Assembly (NCBI RefSeq): GCF_018320785.1 | Contig: NC_054867.1 | Coordinates: forward strand, 50,939,355-51,003,354 | Reading direction: 5' to 3' | DNA from: Cheilinus undulatus | Lineage: Eukaryota; Chordata; Actinopteri; Labriformes; Labridae | Length of the DNA: 64,000 bases | Shown: positions 14,851 to 40,920 of the stretch, piece by piece | Position numbering within the stretch: position 1 is the stretch's first letter | Layout: every line of letters begins with the position of its first letter | Translations under genes and position numbers: made by a program | The notes under the pieces: generated by a model | The model's input: only the letters and a program-made list of their open reading frames with translations | Told to the model about the DNA's origin: nothing | Databases searched by the model: none

Positions 14851-16870
14851 CAACTACATTTCTAAAAAAGTTGGAGCACTGAGTAAAATGTTAGTAAAAA
14901 CAGAATTCAATGACTGTCAAATCCCATAAACCCATTCTATTTACAATAGAACATAACAAAATAAAAGCTGTTGAAACTTTTGCCATTTCATGAAAAATAT
15001 GACCTCATTTTGCATTTGATAGCAGCAACACATCTCAAAAAAGTAGGGACAGAGCTGTGTTTACTATTGTGTAGCATCTACTCTTCTTTAACAACAGTCT
15101 GTTAACGTCTTGGAAGTGAGGTTCCAGGAGCTTTGGGAGAGGAATGTTGTCCCGTTCTTGTGTGATTTAGGATTTGAGCTGCTCACCAGCCCTGGGTCAT
15201 CTTTGCCAGATTTATTGTTTTATGATGCTCCACACGTTTTCTATTTGTGAAATGTCTGGACTGCAGACAGGCCAGTTCAGCATCTGAACTCATCTACTGT
15301 GAGGCCATGCTGTTGTGATGCATGTAGTATGTGATTTAATGTTGTTTGCTGAAATATGCAAGGCCTTCGCTGAAAGAGGTGTCTGAATGGGAGCATAGTT
15401 AGCTCTAAAACCTCTGTCTACTTATCAGCAATTGATAGTGCCCTTCTAGATGTGTAAGCTGCCCCCGCCATAGGCACTAATGCAGGGGTGTCAAACTCAA
15501 TCACAGCTGGGGCCGGATTCTTAATTTGGGTCAAACCTGAGGGCCTAACAGGGTCAATATTTAACCATTGACTGTCAACCTGAATGATTTAGATTTAAAA
15601 AGGTAAACATGATGAGTTGAAAACTCAAAATCTGAGATAAAAAGTCAAACTTACAAGTTTTAAAGGTAAAAACATGACATTTAAAGTCAAAATAATGTCT
15701 TTAAAAGGCAAAGTATGAGATAGAATTCTGAAACCATGATTTTTGGCAGAGGAAAATATGATATAAATGTCAAAATCATGAGTTTTAAAGGTAAGAAAAT
15801 AAACTAAAAGTCAAAGTTAGGAGTTAAAATGGTCAGCAAAACTGAGATAAAATTCAAAATCATATTTAACAAAAATGTGAGATAACTATCGAAATCGTGA
15901 GTTTAAAATGTCAAAATATGAGATTAGATTTCAAATTCATGGGTTTTAAAATCCAAAATATGAAATATAATTAAAACTCATGAGTTTTAAAGGTAAAAAA
16001 TGAGATAAAAGTCAAAATTAGGAGTTGAAAAAGGTCAAACTAGGGTTTAATGTAAAATTATGAATATTAAAGGTAAAAATTTGAGATAAAAAGTAACAGT
16101 TATGAGATGTAAGGGTTAAAATATGAAATAAAAAGTCAAAACCAAACCTTTTAGTCATAACTGAGATGCAAAATTGAAAATATAGAGAAAACAAATTTCT
16201 CCTGTGTTCTTGACTTTTTATCTGATCATTTTTACTGTTTACTTTCTCTAATTTTTATGACTCGGCAAAGATGTTATAAACCATCATGGTTAAATTTACA
16301 TTTTTATACTGGAGGAAATCTGCAGACCTCATACTGGTGGGCCAGTTCTAATAAAAATATTATGTGAATTGGTGGGCCAGGTAAAACTGCACCAGGGCCT
16401 TGAGTTTGACACCCCTGCACTAATGCAACCCCATACCATCAGAGATGCAGGCTTTAGAACTGTGGGCTGATAACAGGCTGAATGGTCCTCCTCTTTAGTC
16501 CTCAGGACATGATGTCTCTGGTTTGCACACAGAGTTTCCAATTTTTATTCACCTGACCACAGAACAGTTTTCTATTTTTCCTCTGTGCATTTTACATGAG
16601 TTTCAGCTAATTTTTACTTCTAGGAGCCTCTGCCTCTCTAAAAAACTCATAAATTAACCCAATTGTTTGCAATATGCTCCTCCAGTTGTTTTTCATTAGT
16701 ACCACTTGCATTTCTAGCTTTTTCTTGCCCTGTCCCTGCTTTTTTGAGATGTGTTGCTGCAACATCTGACATGTTGTTTATATAAAATACGGATTCCTGA
16801 GATTTGACAATTATTGCACTCTGATTTTCACATTTTAGCCAATGCCCCAATTTTTTTGGAATTGGGGTTG
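14851..16870 (-). mobile_element. Tc1-like transposon, dead, split by a hAT-like insertion
   Basis: The ends are inverted copies: left CAACTACATTTCTAAAAAAGT..., right (inverse) CAACCCCAATTCCAAAAAAAT..., with shared sequence (TTGTCAAATC etc.) further in, and TA at both borders (14849-14850 and 16871-16872). A transposase relic on the minus strand is seen at 16541-16426 (VLRTKEE, then KPASLMVWGC) and continues, broken by stops, from 15474 downward. The reading is split by the element at 15483-16417. Without that insert the element is about 1.08 kb, short for Tc1, so it also has internal deletions. Confidence 0.8.
15483..16417. mobile_element. hAT-like non-autonomous element nested in Tc1
   Basis: Terminal inverted repeats CAGGGGTGTCAAACTCAA and its inverse (TTGAGTTTGACACCCCTG) bound the element, and the perfect 8-bp duplication CACTAATG lies on both sides (15475-15482 and 16418-16425). 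The interior is an array of degenerate repeats built on AAACTCATGA / GTCAAAATATGAGATAAAA. No transposase. The element at 25722-26763 has the same build in the opposite orientation. Confidence 0.92.
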
Positions 16871-17785: not shown

Positions 17786-17879
17786 AAGAATATATGGTCA
17801 ACCTCCGGCCACAGGAGGGCGCTCCCTGCAGCCTCTTACCCTACAGTAGCAAGGAAACTGTGTTGTTTAGTAGTGGCTC

Positions 17880-18177
17880 CTTCCTCCTTTTGAGCTCTGC
17901 TATGGTTTCCATTTGGTCTGCAGCTGTTTCTACTAAGAAGTGTCTTACTTTCTTCTCCCCTGCTTCCGTTTAATCAGCTCCCTTTCCTCGACTCGTCGGT
18001 TAAAGCGTTTTAAAGATAATTTACTTTTCATCGTTGTCTGTCGTCCTGGTTTCATTCTGGCGGGCTTTAGTGTTAGCTTGTTGCTCTGTTAGCTTGTTTG
18101 GTGCGTAAACAGTGATGAACGAGTTTTTCTTCTTGAGTTTTTCGGTTGCTTGTTAAACCGGAGGTCCTGATTTTAAA
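17880..18177 (+). promoter_or_regulatory. 5' untranslated region and probable promoter of the 18-24.7 kb gene
   Basis: This stretch is less AT-rich than its flanks and has several CpGs (CTCGACTCGTCGG near 17990). A 13-codon upstream open frame, ATG at 18115 to TAA at 18154-18156, precedes the main start at 18178 by 21 bases. If included in the mRNA it could dampen translation. No TATA box is obvious. Confidence 0.4.
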
Positions 18178-21100
18178 ATGACAAGTGAAAAAAACGACAC
18201 GAACGCGGGAAATGAAGGGGAAGGCAGTCCTAAATCAGAGGCGAACGAGCACGACTATGCCCACAGTGCTGCTGGTAACTCTTCTACAGACCCGACCTCC
18301 TCCGGTACACCTGCAGCTGATGGCACAGTCATCACCACACAGGTAAGACTACACCAGTCCTGACCACACAGGTTAGACCCATTATACCAGTCATCACCAC
18401 ACAGGTTAGACCTATTATACCAGTCATCACCACACAGGTTAGACCTATTATACCAGTCATCACCACACAGGTAAGACTACACCAGTCCTGACCACACAGG
18501 TAAGACCCATTATACCAGTCATCACCACACAGGTTAGACCTATTATACCAGTCATCACCACACAGGTTAGACCTATTATACCAGTCATCACCACACAGGT
18601 AAGACTACACCAGTCCTGACCACACAGGTAAGACCCATTATACCAGTCATCACCACACAGGTTAGACCTATTATACCAGTCATCACCACACAGGTTAGAC
18701 CTATTATACCAGTCATCACCACACAGGTAAGACTACACCAGTCCTGACCACACAGGTAAGACCCATTATACCAGTCATCACCACACAGGTTAGACTACAC
18801 CAGTCCTGACCACACAGGTAAGACCCATTATACCAGTCCTGACCACACAGGTAAGACCCATTATACCAGTCCTGACCACACAGGTTAGACCCATTATACC
18901 AGTCATCACCACACAGGTTAGACCCATTATACCAGTCATCACCACACAGGTAAGACTACACCAGTCCTGACCACACAGGTAAGACTCATTATACCAGTCA
19001 TCACCACACAGGTTAGACCCATTATACCAGTCATCACCACACAGGTTAGACCCATTATACCAGTCATCACCACACAGGTAAGACTCATTATACCAGTCAT
19101 CACCACACAGGTTAGACCTATTATACCAGTCATCACCACACAGGTAAGACTACACCAGTCCTGACCACACAGGTAAGACCCATTATACCAGTCCTGACCA
19201 CACAGGTTAGACCCATTATACCAGTCATCACCACACAGGTTAGACCTATTATATCAGTCCTAACCACACAGGTAAGACCTACTACACAAACCATATAGCA
19301 CAGTACAATATAGGATACAAAAAACAGATTAGCTGTTGAAACTAAGACATTTTACAATTTCAGAGTACAGAGCGACCAACAAAAGGCTGGAAAAGTAAGT
19401 GTTACAAACTTGAAACAGCTGGGGGAGCATTTTGCAAGTAGTTAGGTTAATTGGCAACAGATCAGTAACTTGACTGGGTATAAAAAGAGCATTTTGAGAG
19501 GCAGAGTATCTCAGAAGTAAAGATGGGCAGAGGTACACCAGTCCAAAAAAAAAAAAAGCTTAACTGGCTTATTTGATATTGCTTTGGTAATTCCCCAACA
19601 TTGGGTGCCTAGGACTCGTATTTTTTAGGGGTGCACCCATCGATCAATCTGCGCCAATTTCCTTAATTTTGGGGGATCAGCCATCGGCCAATACTTACAT
19701 ATGAAAGCGATCTTATCCACTGATCTTAACTACCTCTATGTACTAAAATGTGAAAAATGAAAGACTAAAGGAACTGATATGATTTAGTATTATGGACAGC
19801 AATGCTCTAAACTTGTCATTTATATTTGAGCAAACTACCTCATGTGCAGTTAAAAAAACAAGTTTGCATTGTTTCACTGGTATTGTTCAGTGTTTTTCAA
19901 TAAAATAAGATTGGAACATTGAAGGTGTATGCTGTCAATTATATATATAAAAAAATCGGTATCAGCCAAAATTGGAATCGGTAGGCTTTTTAAAGATCTG
20001 TGATCGGCCAGAAAATTGCAATTGGTGCACTCCTCGTATTTTTGTTGTCTTAGTAGTATCTAAACTTGTGTCGATGCTGTATGATTAACTAGTATTTAGT
20101 GGTGGTATCTGCAAAAGCAGCACATCCAGCAAAAAATAAATGGTCTGTGTCATAGACTTCTCCCATATTTGGGACACCTCAAAGGGCCTTTAGATTTTGA
20201 ACGTAGCGCTCAACTTCTGCTGATTGTCTTCAGATAGAAAAATCATTATGAACTTATTGTGAGGGAAGAAAGTTGATAGAAATAAGTGCTGCCTGGTCAG
20301 TTTGCATTCCTAGAAATCCCAGAGAAGTGCAAAGTCTGACCTATCCTTCTCTGTCCCTGATTGGCTTACTGTGATTTACTTTATTTATTTAATTTTTTTA
20401 CCCAACCAAGTAGGGCTGTTCGATTATGGCAAAAATCAAAATCATTATTAACTGAACATTTTACCTTGATTATGATTAATAAATGATTAATTCATACCCA
20501 ACTTCTGACTGTTTGTTCTGTAAATATTTGTATATTAAAAAAAAAACAGCTGAAAGGAACAAGTGCAGATTAACAATTTATGTTTATCTTTTGAAACATT
20601 TGAAATCAAAACACATATCAGCTGAAATGATTTTTTTTTATTTAGTAAAAAGTCAAAGGGGAAAAATTGAAATAATTGACATGGCAGGTTTTCTTCGGTT
20701 AGAGGCTCTAAATGTCGGTTTCGAATATTTTTTGATTAATTTCCCAGCTCTACAACCATGGCAATAACAAGCTCCAGCCAATCAGAAGCAGAGTGAGGCA
20801 GGTCATGCCTTTGTCATACGTAGAAAAAAATGCCTAAACATGTATACTTGTGTATACCCTGCAATAAACACTGCTATTATTGTACTCAAGTTTAAAATTA
20901 TTCTATTGTGACAAACCCTCTGCAGGTAGAGCTTCCTGAACCAGCTGTTGGTGCAGAGGTGGACTGTCCAGGAGGACATGAAGTGGAAGCTCCCTCTCAG
21001 TCGGAGACAACAGGCGACCCTCAAAAGACACCAGCTTTTCAGCTGGAGAGTGCCATCCCTATCAGTACACCTCCGGGCGGCAACCGGCGCCGAAACTCCG

Positions 21101-24100
21101 TCCGGCGTCCGGAGGACAGGAACTGTTGTGCCTGCAAGTGTGAGTTTGAGCGGCAGGGCCGTAGCTTCAACCGGAGAGCAGTGTACACCTTTACCACACC
21201 GGACACCGTTTCCTGGGTTTTCCCTGGCGTCACCGTAAATGATAAGTCCTTCCTGTGTGAGACCTGCGCTCAGATCATCAGGACCAAATGCAAGCGCAAA
21301 CAGAACTCAAAGAGATCACTGTGGCTGAAACCTCCTGTCACACAACAGGTGTGTTACTGAATCTCTGCAGACATAATGACATGTTTGCAAGTGTTTTACT
21401 ATTCACTGTCATGTAATTAAACATTGAATACTTTGTGAAGTAGAGTTGTGCTTAAAAGAGCATTGGTTGAATCACATTTCATCACACTTTTTTTCTCTTT
21501 TGTGTTTGTTTTTTTTTTTGTTTTGTTTTTTTGGTGAGTGAAGTCAAAACTGAAAGACAAGAAGAAGAATGACCGCAGGATGGGGAAGAAGAGCAAAGCA
21601 GCGCTGCTGGTGAGCAAATCCTGCTACAAGGCAGCTCTAAAGATGCTTTGGTCTGCTAAAGGAGCCCGTAAACCCATGCTAGAGTTCTGGAGAAAACAGC
21701 TGAAAGAGGAGGTGAGGACACAAACTCCTGGTTGATGCATTCATTGATCAGTACACCGGGGTTTTCATGATACCAGATGATTAACCTTTGATATGATTCT
21801 AGTGAAGAGTCCTATTAAAAATTGTATCGTATTATAGAGAACATCTAACCTTGGTATAGTCTTGTTTACTTTTTCATTACTTTGTTGTTCTTGTTTGTGA
21901 TGTTTTCCAGATGAAGGCAATGACACGAAACACTGACAGTCCATTTCAGGAGAAGGTGTCGACCAAGAGGCCACTGTCATCCTTTCCCTGGCGTCGCTGT
22001 CTGGACTGGGCCCAGGAAAAAGCTCCACTCGTCTTCACTTGCCTCACCTCTCTGTTTCCTGACATCAATGCCCTCTCCAAGAGCGGACAGTAAGTCAAAA
22101 ATGTGATATGCTCACATATGTTTCATAAAGGTCATTTAGCTGAGATGTTTCTGATTTTAAAAGTGCTATTTAAACTCAGACTTAATCTGCTGTCTGTTCT
22201 TTGCATGTGTGCAGTCAGCTGTCAGAGGAGCAGGCTCAGACACTGCTGGAGCGAAGGACTGTGGTGGCGCTCTCCATCCCGCTCTTCACTAGGAACGTCT
22301 GGAAGAACAACTTCCTGCAGGCAGCTCTGGGGGCGGAACTGCGCCTACAGGGCTGCACAAGCTCCGCTCTTGAAGCCCTAAACACCATGGGACTGTGTCA
22401 AAACAAAGACACCGTCAGGCTGCTGCTGCATCGCCTCCGAAACAGCAAGAAGACTGTGAGTAACTCAATCAGCTGTCTTTGCATGGTAGTGAAACATTAG
22501 CTATCCATCAGGTGTCAAGTTCCGTTTATTTAGGGAGAACAGCAAAAGAAAAGAGAAAATTACAAATAAAATATGGACATCAGAAGTCACAAAGATGGAA
22601 AGGATGTGAATGAATCTGTGGGGCACAGCGAGGGGGCGAGCAGAGAAGAAATATCTGGAGGTGAATGACAGCTGTGTTTGTTTACAACGTGTTGAAGTGT
22701 TAGCAGAGAAATCTGCCTGCAATCAAAACTGCACCAGAATGAATAACTTAAGAGCAACCACACAACGGGGCATTGGATCCATTTTAACGGGGTATCTCTC
22801 TAGAGAAAGACTTTGTCACACACCCATTGACAAAAACCTGACATGTCTTAGCTTATATGTACTAGAACTTATGATTGGCTGCTGCCCCTCTTCACTTTGT
22901 CAATGTGGTAATTTATTTATATACATTAAACCAAGAAAACCTGATTGAGGTCAAGAAATTTTTATAAGAGTGATTTGGCCAAACTCGGCAGTTGTACTTT
23001 TAATGAAGTCACAGCCTTTTCAATCTGGCACTTTGTGCTTGCAGCTGCCGCGCATATTCCTTCCAGTGTGCATCGTCAAAGTTTTCATAAGTGCTCTGAG
23101 TGTTGGCTGCGTCTCCCTACAAGTGACTTGATTGATTTTTTAATGGCACCATGTCGGGGACTATTCAATATAAAAATACTCTGTACAATTAAAGGGAGTT
23201 TCTCTAAAGAAGTACTAAACCGAGCACAAACCATACTCAAACTGTGTTTAACTTTCCTGTAATGTGTTGTACTGGTGTGGAAATAGAAAGCTTTACTTAT
23301 AGAAGTGTAGAGAAAACTTTAAACAGTTGTATATTTGCTTGTGGCTTTCATCAGGGTCATCAGAGATGGACTGCAAACGAATTTTACCAATGCAGACATT
23401 TATTATTTGCTGTCTATTTTGGTTGATAATTGTGTGCAGAAAAAATGGCAAAACTTCAATATCTGTATTTTCCCCTGACTTTTTGACATATAAAAGAACT
23501 GAAAATCCAGTCGTGTCTAACGTGCCCATTGCACAGTCTAAAGCGACTATTACGGACCAAATACAGAGGCATTGTAAACACAGATCAACCCAGTTGGGGG
23601 TCACCAGTCAAAGTATCTGTAACCTGATGCATCTTCCCCCAATGTGTCTGATCTACCCTGGCAGTCTGTGTATGGGTCCAACTTGTGGCTCCTTTCCCAC
23701 AATTCTTTTTCCACTCTCCCTGATTTCTGATGCTGTCCTAAGCATATGAAAATAAATCTCAAAAACATAAAATCTGATTTGAAGAGACCAGCTCCTCTAG
23801 ACACAAATTTTCCTGCAGAAGTTTCCAGGCTGCAGGAGCAGCATACCTGAAACTCCAAACTTTAGGGGTAGATGGCAACAAAACAGAGCAGTGATTAGTT
23901 TATTACAAATTAAAGCACATTTTTATTGATTTTGAAATGAAAGAGCAGCTTCCTCTTCTGTGAGACAGCTGTGGCACAAGAGTTTATTCTGATAAAATGG
24001 TTAATGCCAGTATACACGCATCTTAATCATGTATAGTGACTTTGCAACATGTCCACAAGAGGGCGCCAAATTCATGCACACCTTAAGTTCTTTCTTCAGC

Positions 24101-24734
24101 TTTAAATTTGATTTTCCTGTGTTTAAAGTTGCAGTTTAAACTTTGTACCACGACACTTAATTAAGTGTAGTGCATTTTTGTTCATCCACAAGGGGGCAGC
24201 GCAGCAGAAGTGTATATTTCTGATTTGCTTCAATGTTTATGTCTACAGTCACAGAACGGAGGACGCCTAAAGATAAAACAAATGCAGATGAAAGGAGAAC
24301 AGATGGCCGATGTGGAAGAGGAAGATATCGAGGAGGATGAGGAAGAGGAGGAGGAGGATGAAGAAGATGACGAGGATGAAGATGAGGATGTAGAGGAGGA
24401 AGAAGAGCAGGAAATTGAGATGCAAGTAGAAGAAGAAGTGGAAGAGGCTGAAGTGCAGGACGAAGTGCCGATGGAGGAAGAGGAGGACCAGTCAGCAGCA
24501 GAGGAGGAGAAAAAGAGAAGGAGGAAGAAGGCGAAGAAGCAGAAGAAGGAGGAGAAGAGGAAGGAGAGAGGCAAACGAAAGGCTAAGGAGAGACGGGAGG
24601 AGGAGCAGCAGGAGGAGGCAGAGGAGGACGATGATGAAGGGTCGGAGCAGAAGAAGAGGAGGGTGGTGGTGGTGAGGCTCGGCCTGCTGAAGGGACACTC
24701 AGAGGTCGGACGGTCTGACCTATCAGCTCCCTGA
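18178..24734 (+). CDS. Unrecognised six-exon gene, Cys-rich protein with acidic/basic tail
   Basis: Exons: 18178-18342, 20926-21348, 21544-21711, 21911-22089, 22215-22455, 24249-24734. All junctions are GT/AG, phases match, and the joined frame is 553 codons plus TGA. The start at 18178 has A at -3. Residues 1-120 are Ser/Thr/Pro-rich; 122-177 carry CCACKC and later FLCETC, a likely zinc-binding pair of CxxC knuckles; 197-392 look globular and helical (FPWRRCLDWAQEKAP, LEALNTMGLCQN); 402-490 are Asp/Glu-rich; 485-540 Lys/Arg-rich, suggesting nuclear or nucleolar location. The N-terminal knuckles and the LNxxGLC motif recall uncharacterised animal proteins linked to transposon-like DUF6589 genes, but the long DUF6589 part is absent. 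Function unknown. Polyadenylation signals AATAAA at 24843 and 24954. Confidence 0.8.
18322..19290 (+). repeat. Minisatellite containing repeated splice-donor sequence
   Basis: Tandem units of 33 bp (GACCCATTATACCAGTCATC + ACCACACAGGTTA) and 29 bp (GACTACACCAGTCCTG + ACCACACAGGTAA). At the left they form a 128-bp higher-order unit (29+33+33+33) starting at 18343, 18471, 18599 and 18727, then become irregular. The last 18 bases of exon 1 (ACAGTCATCACCACACAG) are the first copy of the unit's end, so the array grew from the exon 1/intron 1 junction. About 15 copies of CACACAGGTAAGA are present, counting the genuine donor at 18343. Confidence 0.95.
19627..20034. mobile_element. MITE-like element in intron 1
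   Basis: Ends are inverted copies: AGGGGTGCACCCATCGATC at the left and, inverted, AGGAGTGCACCAATTGC at the right. CGTATTTT-like sequence flanks both sides as an imperfect duplication. The inner parts also pair (CGGCCAATAC / GATCGGCCAG). No coding capacity. Confidence 0.65.
20411..20752. mobile_element. MITE-like element in intron 1
   Basis: It starts TAGGGCTGTTCGATTATGG and ends, inverted, TAGAGCTGGGAAATTAATC. It is flanked by CAACCAAG (20403-20410) and CAACCATG (20753-20760), a 7-of-8 target duplication. The interior is AT-rich and non-coding. Confidence 0.7.
22500..24240. repeat. Intron 5 of the unrecognised gene, with a SINE tail
   Basis: No coding exon is supported in this intron. At about 23630-23770 the plus strand resembles the body and tail of the tRNA-derived SINE (CTCCTTTCCCACA..., CCACTCTCCC..., AATAAATCTCAAAAAC). 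The first kilobase has no repeat I can name. Confidence 0.35.
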
Positions 24735-25721: not shown

Positions 25722-26763
25722 CAGGGGTGTCAAACTCAAGGCCTGGGGGCCAAATCTGGCCCGTGGTGCAGTTATACCTGGCCCATCAGATCATATGATA
25801 TTTTCATTATAACTGGCCCACCAGTATGGGGTCTGCAGATTTCCTCCAGTATAAAAATGCGAACTTAACCATGATGATTTATAATATCCTTGTCAAGTCA
25901 TAAAAATTAGAAAAAGTAAACATAAAAAAATATATATTATATTTTCAATTTTGCATCTCCCATAACTAAAAGTTATGATTTTGACTGTTTTTCATATTTT
26001 GACCTTTAAACCTCATAACTTTGACTTTTTCTCTCATATTTTTACCTTTTAGATTCAATATTTTACATTACAAATCCTATTTTGACCTTTTAAGTCATGT
26101 TTTTGACTTTCATCTCATATTTTGACCATTTTGAACTCCTAACTTTGACTTTTATGTCGGTCATTTACATTTAAAACTTGTGATTTTTAATGTTATTTCA
26201 TATTTTGACTTTTAAAACTCATGAATTTTAAATTTCATCTCATAATTTTACATTTTAAACTCCTGATTTTGATGTTTCTCTCACATTTTGATTGTTAAAT
26301 ATCATGATATTGAATTTTATCTCAGTTTTGCTGACCATTTCAACTCCTAACTTTGATTTTTATCTAATTTTTCACCCTTAAAACTCATGATTTTGAATTT
26401 TAATTCATATTTTGACTTTTAAAACCCATGGTTTTAAAATTTCTTCTCATATTTTGACCTTTAAAACTCATTATTTTGACATTTATATCATATTTTGACT
26501 TAAAAATCATGGTTTCAGAATTATATCTCATATTTTGACTTTTAAAAACATTGTTTTGACTTTAAATGTCATGTTTTTACCTTTAAAAATTATGAGTTTT
26601 ACTCTTTACCTCAGATTTTGAGTTTTTAACTTATCATTTTGACCTTATAATCTTAATATCATTTAGGTTGACACTTAGTGGTTAAATGTTGACCCTGTTA
26701 CGCCCTCAGGTTAGACCCAGATTCAGAATCTGGTCCCTGCTGTGATTGAGTTTGACACCCTTA
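25722..26763. mobile_element. hAT-like non-autonomous element with array interior
   Basis: Left end CAGGGGTGTCAAACTCAAGG, right end (inverse) TAAGGGTGTCAAACTCAATC, and a perfect 8-bp duplication TTTTAGAT at 25714-25721 and 26764-26771. Interior is a degenerate array built on TTTTGACTTTTATCTCATAT and AAAACTCATGATTTTGA. It is the inverse-orientation sister of 15483-16417. Confidence 0.9.

Positions 26764-31560: not shown

Positions 31561-40920
<9,360 letters not shown>

Follow-up and report, generated by a model that had tools for sequence, protein, structure and literature searches.

Cheilinus undulatus carries, within a 64,000-nucleotide stretch of contig NC_054867.1 (hereafter the window, numbered from its first base on the forward strand), a minisatellite of 0.96 kb (18326-19287, plus strand) that starts inside the predicted first exon of a six-exon gene and runs on into intron 1, so that the predicted donor of this intron at 18343 is the first of 30 donor-like copies. 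The array probably copies a live donor at a coding boundary, as the original prediction had proposed, and this is supported by the phase 0 end of the exon, its open frame, the strength of the donor, the highest of the five in the gene, and the CpG-richer gene start. With fair confidence, we interpret the structure as a minisatellite of the type called "mirage" in amphioxus, in which the first donor would be used and the copies would be mostly silent. The array most likely arose as a by-product of tandem duplication, and would be unstable and neutral.

To define the array, we combined Tandem Repeats Finder, a donor scan and autocorrelation. Tandem Repeats Finder called a repeat at 18326-19279 and assigned it periods of 33, 128 and 161; we extended this call as far as the last donor copy, which ends at 19287. 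The scan revealed 30 consecutive copies of ACAGGT[AT]AGA at intervals of 33 bp (22 of 29) or 29 bp (7 of 29). The array autocorrelation was highest at 128 (0.807), followed by 33 (0.752), and the higher-order period of 128 corresponds to 29 + 3 x 33. These three approaches agree with the location, the extent of nearly 1 kb and the 128-bp period first proposed. The count of about 15 copies was right for GTAAGA (15, including 18343) but not for the whole row, which has 15 GTTAGA copies as well. Each unit comprises 17 exon-side bases, and not 18 as first counted, followed by 12 or 16 intron-side bases. The exon-side part, CAGTCATCACCACACAG from 18326, is first represented by the last 17 bases of predicted exon 1 (18326-18342). 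It is exact in 19 of the 30 copies, and CATCA is replaced by CCTGA or CCTAA in the other 11. By contrast, its last nine bases are identical in every copy, ACCACACAG|GT being common to all 30, and CAG|GT is always followed by AAGA or TAGA. The upstream context said to be shared by every GTAAGA copy is therefore limited to these nine bases, the full 17 being present in only 7 of the 15.

Ten unit types follow one another in the order ABCCADCCADCCADEDDBFAGFFHCADBIJ, which indicates an array that is homogenised yet irregular. A-D-C-C blocks repeat within the 5' half, where the edge copy is not diverged, and the last two copies are marked by base changes absent from all the others. This diverged 3' edge, together with the start of the unique intron, covers 19239-19310, where the last donor copy (at 19272) has the sequence GTAAGACCTACTACAC. 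Open frames on the reverse strand over the array were set aside, as they were attributed to the repetition of a stop-free unit.

The gene model was built from the sequence alone. The six predicted exons, all on the plus strand, join into an uninterrupted frame of 553 codons, from the ATG at 18178 to the TGA at 24732-24734, and all five predicted introns are GT-AG. The coding part of exon 1 (18178-18342, 55 codons) ends in phase 0, and exon 2 (20926-21348) starts in phase 0 after CTCTGCAG. Exons 3 (21544-21711), 4 (21911-22089) and 5 (22215-22455) precede the coding part of the last exon with its stop (24249-24734), which encodes a C-terminus that is acidic, then lysine-rich. The frame of exon 1 contains no stop, compared to one to five in the five other frames. 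According to the translation, the next in-frame ATG is in exon 3; therefore, the cysteine-rich part encoded by exon 2 needs exon 1 or another ATG-bearing first exon. The CpG observed/expected ratio reached 0.76 and 0.80 in two overlapping 400-bp bins over 17800-18399, in comparison with 0.16-0.35 in the five preceding bins and 0.00 in three bins over 18400-19199. This rise fits a promoter and a first exon. In the probable 5' leader, an ATG at 18115, in frame with 18178, meets a stop at 18154 and may open a short upstream reading frame.

Donor strength was assessed from the U1 duplex energy and with a donor matrix, using as background the 3360 plus-strand GT sites of the window outside the array. 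The predicted authentic donor CAGGTAAGA (GTAAGA at 18343-18348) is the strongest of the five donors of the gene, with a U1 duplex of -11.5 kcal/mol compared to -5.6 to -10.2 kcal/mol for the others, and the matrix agrees. Only 4 of the 3360 background sites score at least as high as CAGGTAAGA with this matrix, as against 15 in less than 1 kb of array, which places the row of donors beyond chance. The GTTAGA copies, represented by CAGGTTAGA (-7.6 kcal/mol), are unexceptional as donors, since 70 of the 3360 sites score at least as high, and the remainder of intron 1 has one more site above this score, at 19395. A row of recursive-splicing (ratcheting) sites was also considered and is not favoured. 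At the acceptor-like ends of the array, in the first 6 of the 30 copies, the pyrimidine share (0.56-0.63) is no higher than in the five predicted acceptors of the gene (0.63-0.69), and all six have an AG close upstream, in comparison with one of the five acceptors.

We then joined each possible end of exon 1 to the remaining exons. The donor at 18343 gives the 553-residue product, whereas all 29 later donors give the same 61 residues, ending ITTQVRLHQS. The path CAG GTA AGA CTA CAC CAG TCC TGA, announced from the outset, is thus followed whichever later donor is taken, and the TGA at 18361-18363 closes the frame. What had been missed is that the 33-bp unit is frame-neutral. It is a multiple of three and is stop-free in the reading frame, encoding VRPIIPVITTQ in 16 of 22 cases and three variants in the other 6, and only the 29-bp unit, four bases shorter, shifts the frame to the TGA. 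Since the first unit of the allele in the window is of 29 bp, every later donor meets this stop; were the first unit of an allele 33 bp long, the next donor would add in-frame repeats instead. The openness of the 33-bp unit is perhaps luck, because shuffling leaves a given frame of a 33-mer open in 67% of trials. Premature stops with exon junctions downstream generally trigger nonsense-mediated decay (NMD), and since several junctions lie downstream of 18361-18363, transcripts from the later donors would be expected to undergo it.

A donor-copying array at a coding boundary had been called unusual, which is only partly right, as this kind of structure is already described in amphioxus mirages, in a variable number tandem repeat (VNTR) of human CBS and in human exon-intron boundary repeats, to which the present array adds a new example. 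The published systems are cited here from excerpts of the papers. In amphioxus, mirages occur in Adh3 and the globins BflGb6 and BflGb9 (PMC3087553) and in TnC and PGBD5 (PMC3902484). From a feature list distilled from PMC3087553, the present array displays three sequence features of mirages: units with bases from both sides of the (predicted) exon end, splice signals within the units, and a homogenised interior with a diverged edge. The same excerpt describes edge copies left out of homogenisation, a length-unstable BflGb6 mirage with haplotypes of 6 and 3 units, and data suggesting that regular splicing is undisturbed. The amphioxus cases differ in belonging to a cephalochordate and in having units of 10 to 160 bp; here, there are 30 copies with a higher-order period, at the donor of the first coding intron.

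The human CBS 31-bp VNTR, c.1444_1467+7(16_21), is variable, with 16 to 21 copies (PMC2630376). Its name implies 24 exonic and 7 intronic bases per unit, and it should therefore copy a donor. By this name, it resembles the present array in having exon and intron bases in a unit of similar length; unlike it, the VNTR lies late in the coding sequence and not in intron 1, and 31 bp is no multiple of three. The excerpt of PMC5188458 names the VNTR in a table and in the references, with no word on its splicing. Human internal tandem repeats in segmental duplications can alter splicing when located at exon-intron boundaries (PMC2812944); the variable ones have units averaging 30 bp, as here, but average 4 copies, and novel introns are reported. 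In the potato RdRp gene, a duplication also crosses an intron-exon boundary, but that of intron 1 and exon 2, and it yields a new intron, none being shown here (PMC4974935). Intron 1 of Sparus MSTN-2 has a block of about 150 bp in one or two copies at its 5' end, for which the excerpt does not describe donor copying. A search of viral contigs with the unit pattern of the array gave no matches.

The simplest history begins with a 33-bp segment, with 17 bases from the end of exon 1 and 16 from the start of intron 1, that would have been duplicated in tandem and expanded by unequal exchange or slippage. A loss of 4 bp in one unit would have been followed by the spread of the 128-bp block, leaving an array homogenised into 29- and 33-bp units; the order of these events is our reconstruction. 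Without its four bases CTAC, the last donor copy GTAAGACCTACTACAC is exactly the intron side of the 29-bp type, GTAAGACTACAC, whereas it shows three differences from each of the two 33-bp forms that look commonest, GTTAGACCTATTATAC and GTAAGACCCATTATAC. Given this identity and the differences at the edge, intron 1 may originally have begun with the last copy, and the former end of the exon would then lie at the opposite edge of the array.

In the mirage reading, the gene would be expressed and the cap-proximal first donor at 18343 would serve the normal mRNA. The later donors would be mostly ignored, or would give minor transcripts stopping at 18361-18363 and cleared by NMD. The use of the first donor is favoured by analogy with the amphioxus mirages. 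Several points weigh against this interpretation. The coding status of exon 1, resting on phase and context, is the weakest link of the gene model: 11.7% of exon 1 shuffles keep this frame open, so that exon 1 by itself is weakly supported as coding. Pfam returned no family for the 553-residue protein up to an E-value of 10, and a search of PDB sequences with the first 403 of the 553 residues gave seven weak matches, none convincing (best E 0.47). The last copy could alternatively be an ordinary decayed edge unit rather than an ancestral one. Moreover, SRSF1 reportedly activates intron-proximal donors, hnRNP A1 having the opposite effect, toward distal ones (PMC5585400), and human CBS 844ins68, where the intron 7/exon 8 junction is duplicated, shows a strong preference for the more distal copy (PMC2630376). 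Based on the preference of SRSF1 and on this distal-copy preference, some leakage to the later donors is plausible.

Alternatively, the array could act as a length-variable rheostat, in which the extra GTAAGA copies pull U1 off the first donor and a longer array yields less protein and more of the truncated RNA that NMD targets. The common stop at 18361-18363 for all 29 later donors is in line with this, and so are the 14 later donors with the authentic hexamer, the 15 others being weaker (-7.6 vs -11.5 kcal/mol); going by its title, Lievers et al. 2001 tied the human CBS 31-bp VNTR to reduced activity. However, the amphioxus mirages are reported without disturbed splicing, and we consider a rheostat unlikely, although it comes ahead of the other alternatives. 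A hypermutable variant of it, with a frame switch, would depend on the first unit: with 33 bp, the next donor would add 11-residue repeats, and with 29 bp, all the later donors would be NMD traps. This variant appears quite unlikely; if true, any recombination affecting the copy number or the type of the first unit would switch protein output, or tune it, from one individual to another. It is also improbable, somewhat more so, that the array is or was a coding VNTR, at its start or still in other alleles, in which units of 33 bp only would let a later donor add 11 residues (VRPIIPVITTQ-like) per unit, until one unit lost 4 bp and this shorter form spread, making the array a non-coding intron. 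The 22 of 29 intervals of 33 bp, stop-free in phase 0, and the restriction of the stop to the 7 of 29 bp would suit a coding past, but the openness of shuffled 33-mers makes this weak evidence, the succession of events is itself reconstructed, and the first unit of the window's allele is already of 29 bp. For the present allele, this history is compatible with a mirage.

The structure itself could be mistaken, either through an assembly artefact giving a wrong copy number or through a wrong gene model in which 18342/18343 is not an exon end. Near-identical 128-bp blocks are difficult to assemble; nevertheless, the irregular succession of ten distinguishable unit types argues against an artefact, as does the diverged 3' edge, and splice phases consistent across six exons argue against a wrong model. 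We hold an error of either kind to be improbable, slightly more so than a coding VNTR. U1 sites are known to guard transcripts against early cleavage and polyadenylation (telescripting), and the dense row of sites could shield the transcript in this way early in intron 1, or stimulate transcription at the promoter close by. Intron 1 indeed contains five A(A/T)TAAA motifs downstream of the thirty U1-like sites, but such hexamers are expected anyway in A+T-rich introns, which leaves this as the least probable reading, and a very doubtful one. The favoured and rival readings are not all mutually exclusive.

Other features were observed around the gene. It is flanked by one A+T-rich minisatellite family of about 41 bp in opposite orientation, at 15486-16144 and 26098-26760 (77.5% identity over 680 aligned columns), and a further inverted match joins 16229-16399 with 25758-25928 (88% identity over 172 columns). 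These flanking minisatellites may represent a dispersed element present in two copies. On the minus strand, an open frame at 35601-36038 matches Pfam DDE_3 (E 5.5e-11) and resembles a Tc1/mariner-type transposase. A frame at 36976-37596, also on the minus strand, has a Pfam match to the transketolase pyrimidine-binding domain (E 2.5e-14); together with 39700-39918 on the same strand, it resembles pyruvate dehydrogenase E1 beta (PDHB), the Pfam scan having covered the first of the two.

Overall, the Cheilinus undulatus array adds a long, regular vertebrate example to the mirages of amphioxus and the human CBS VNTR. If splicing faithfully takes the first donor before 29 near-identical competitors, the locus would be a natural experiment on a cap-proximal donor beating its own copies, and alleles of different array length would make this competition testable.
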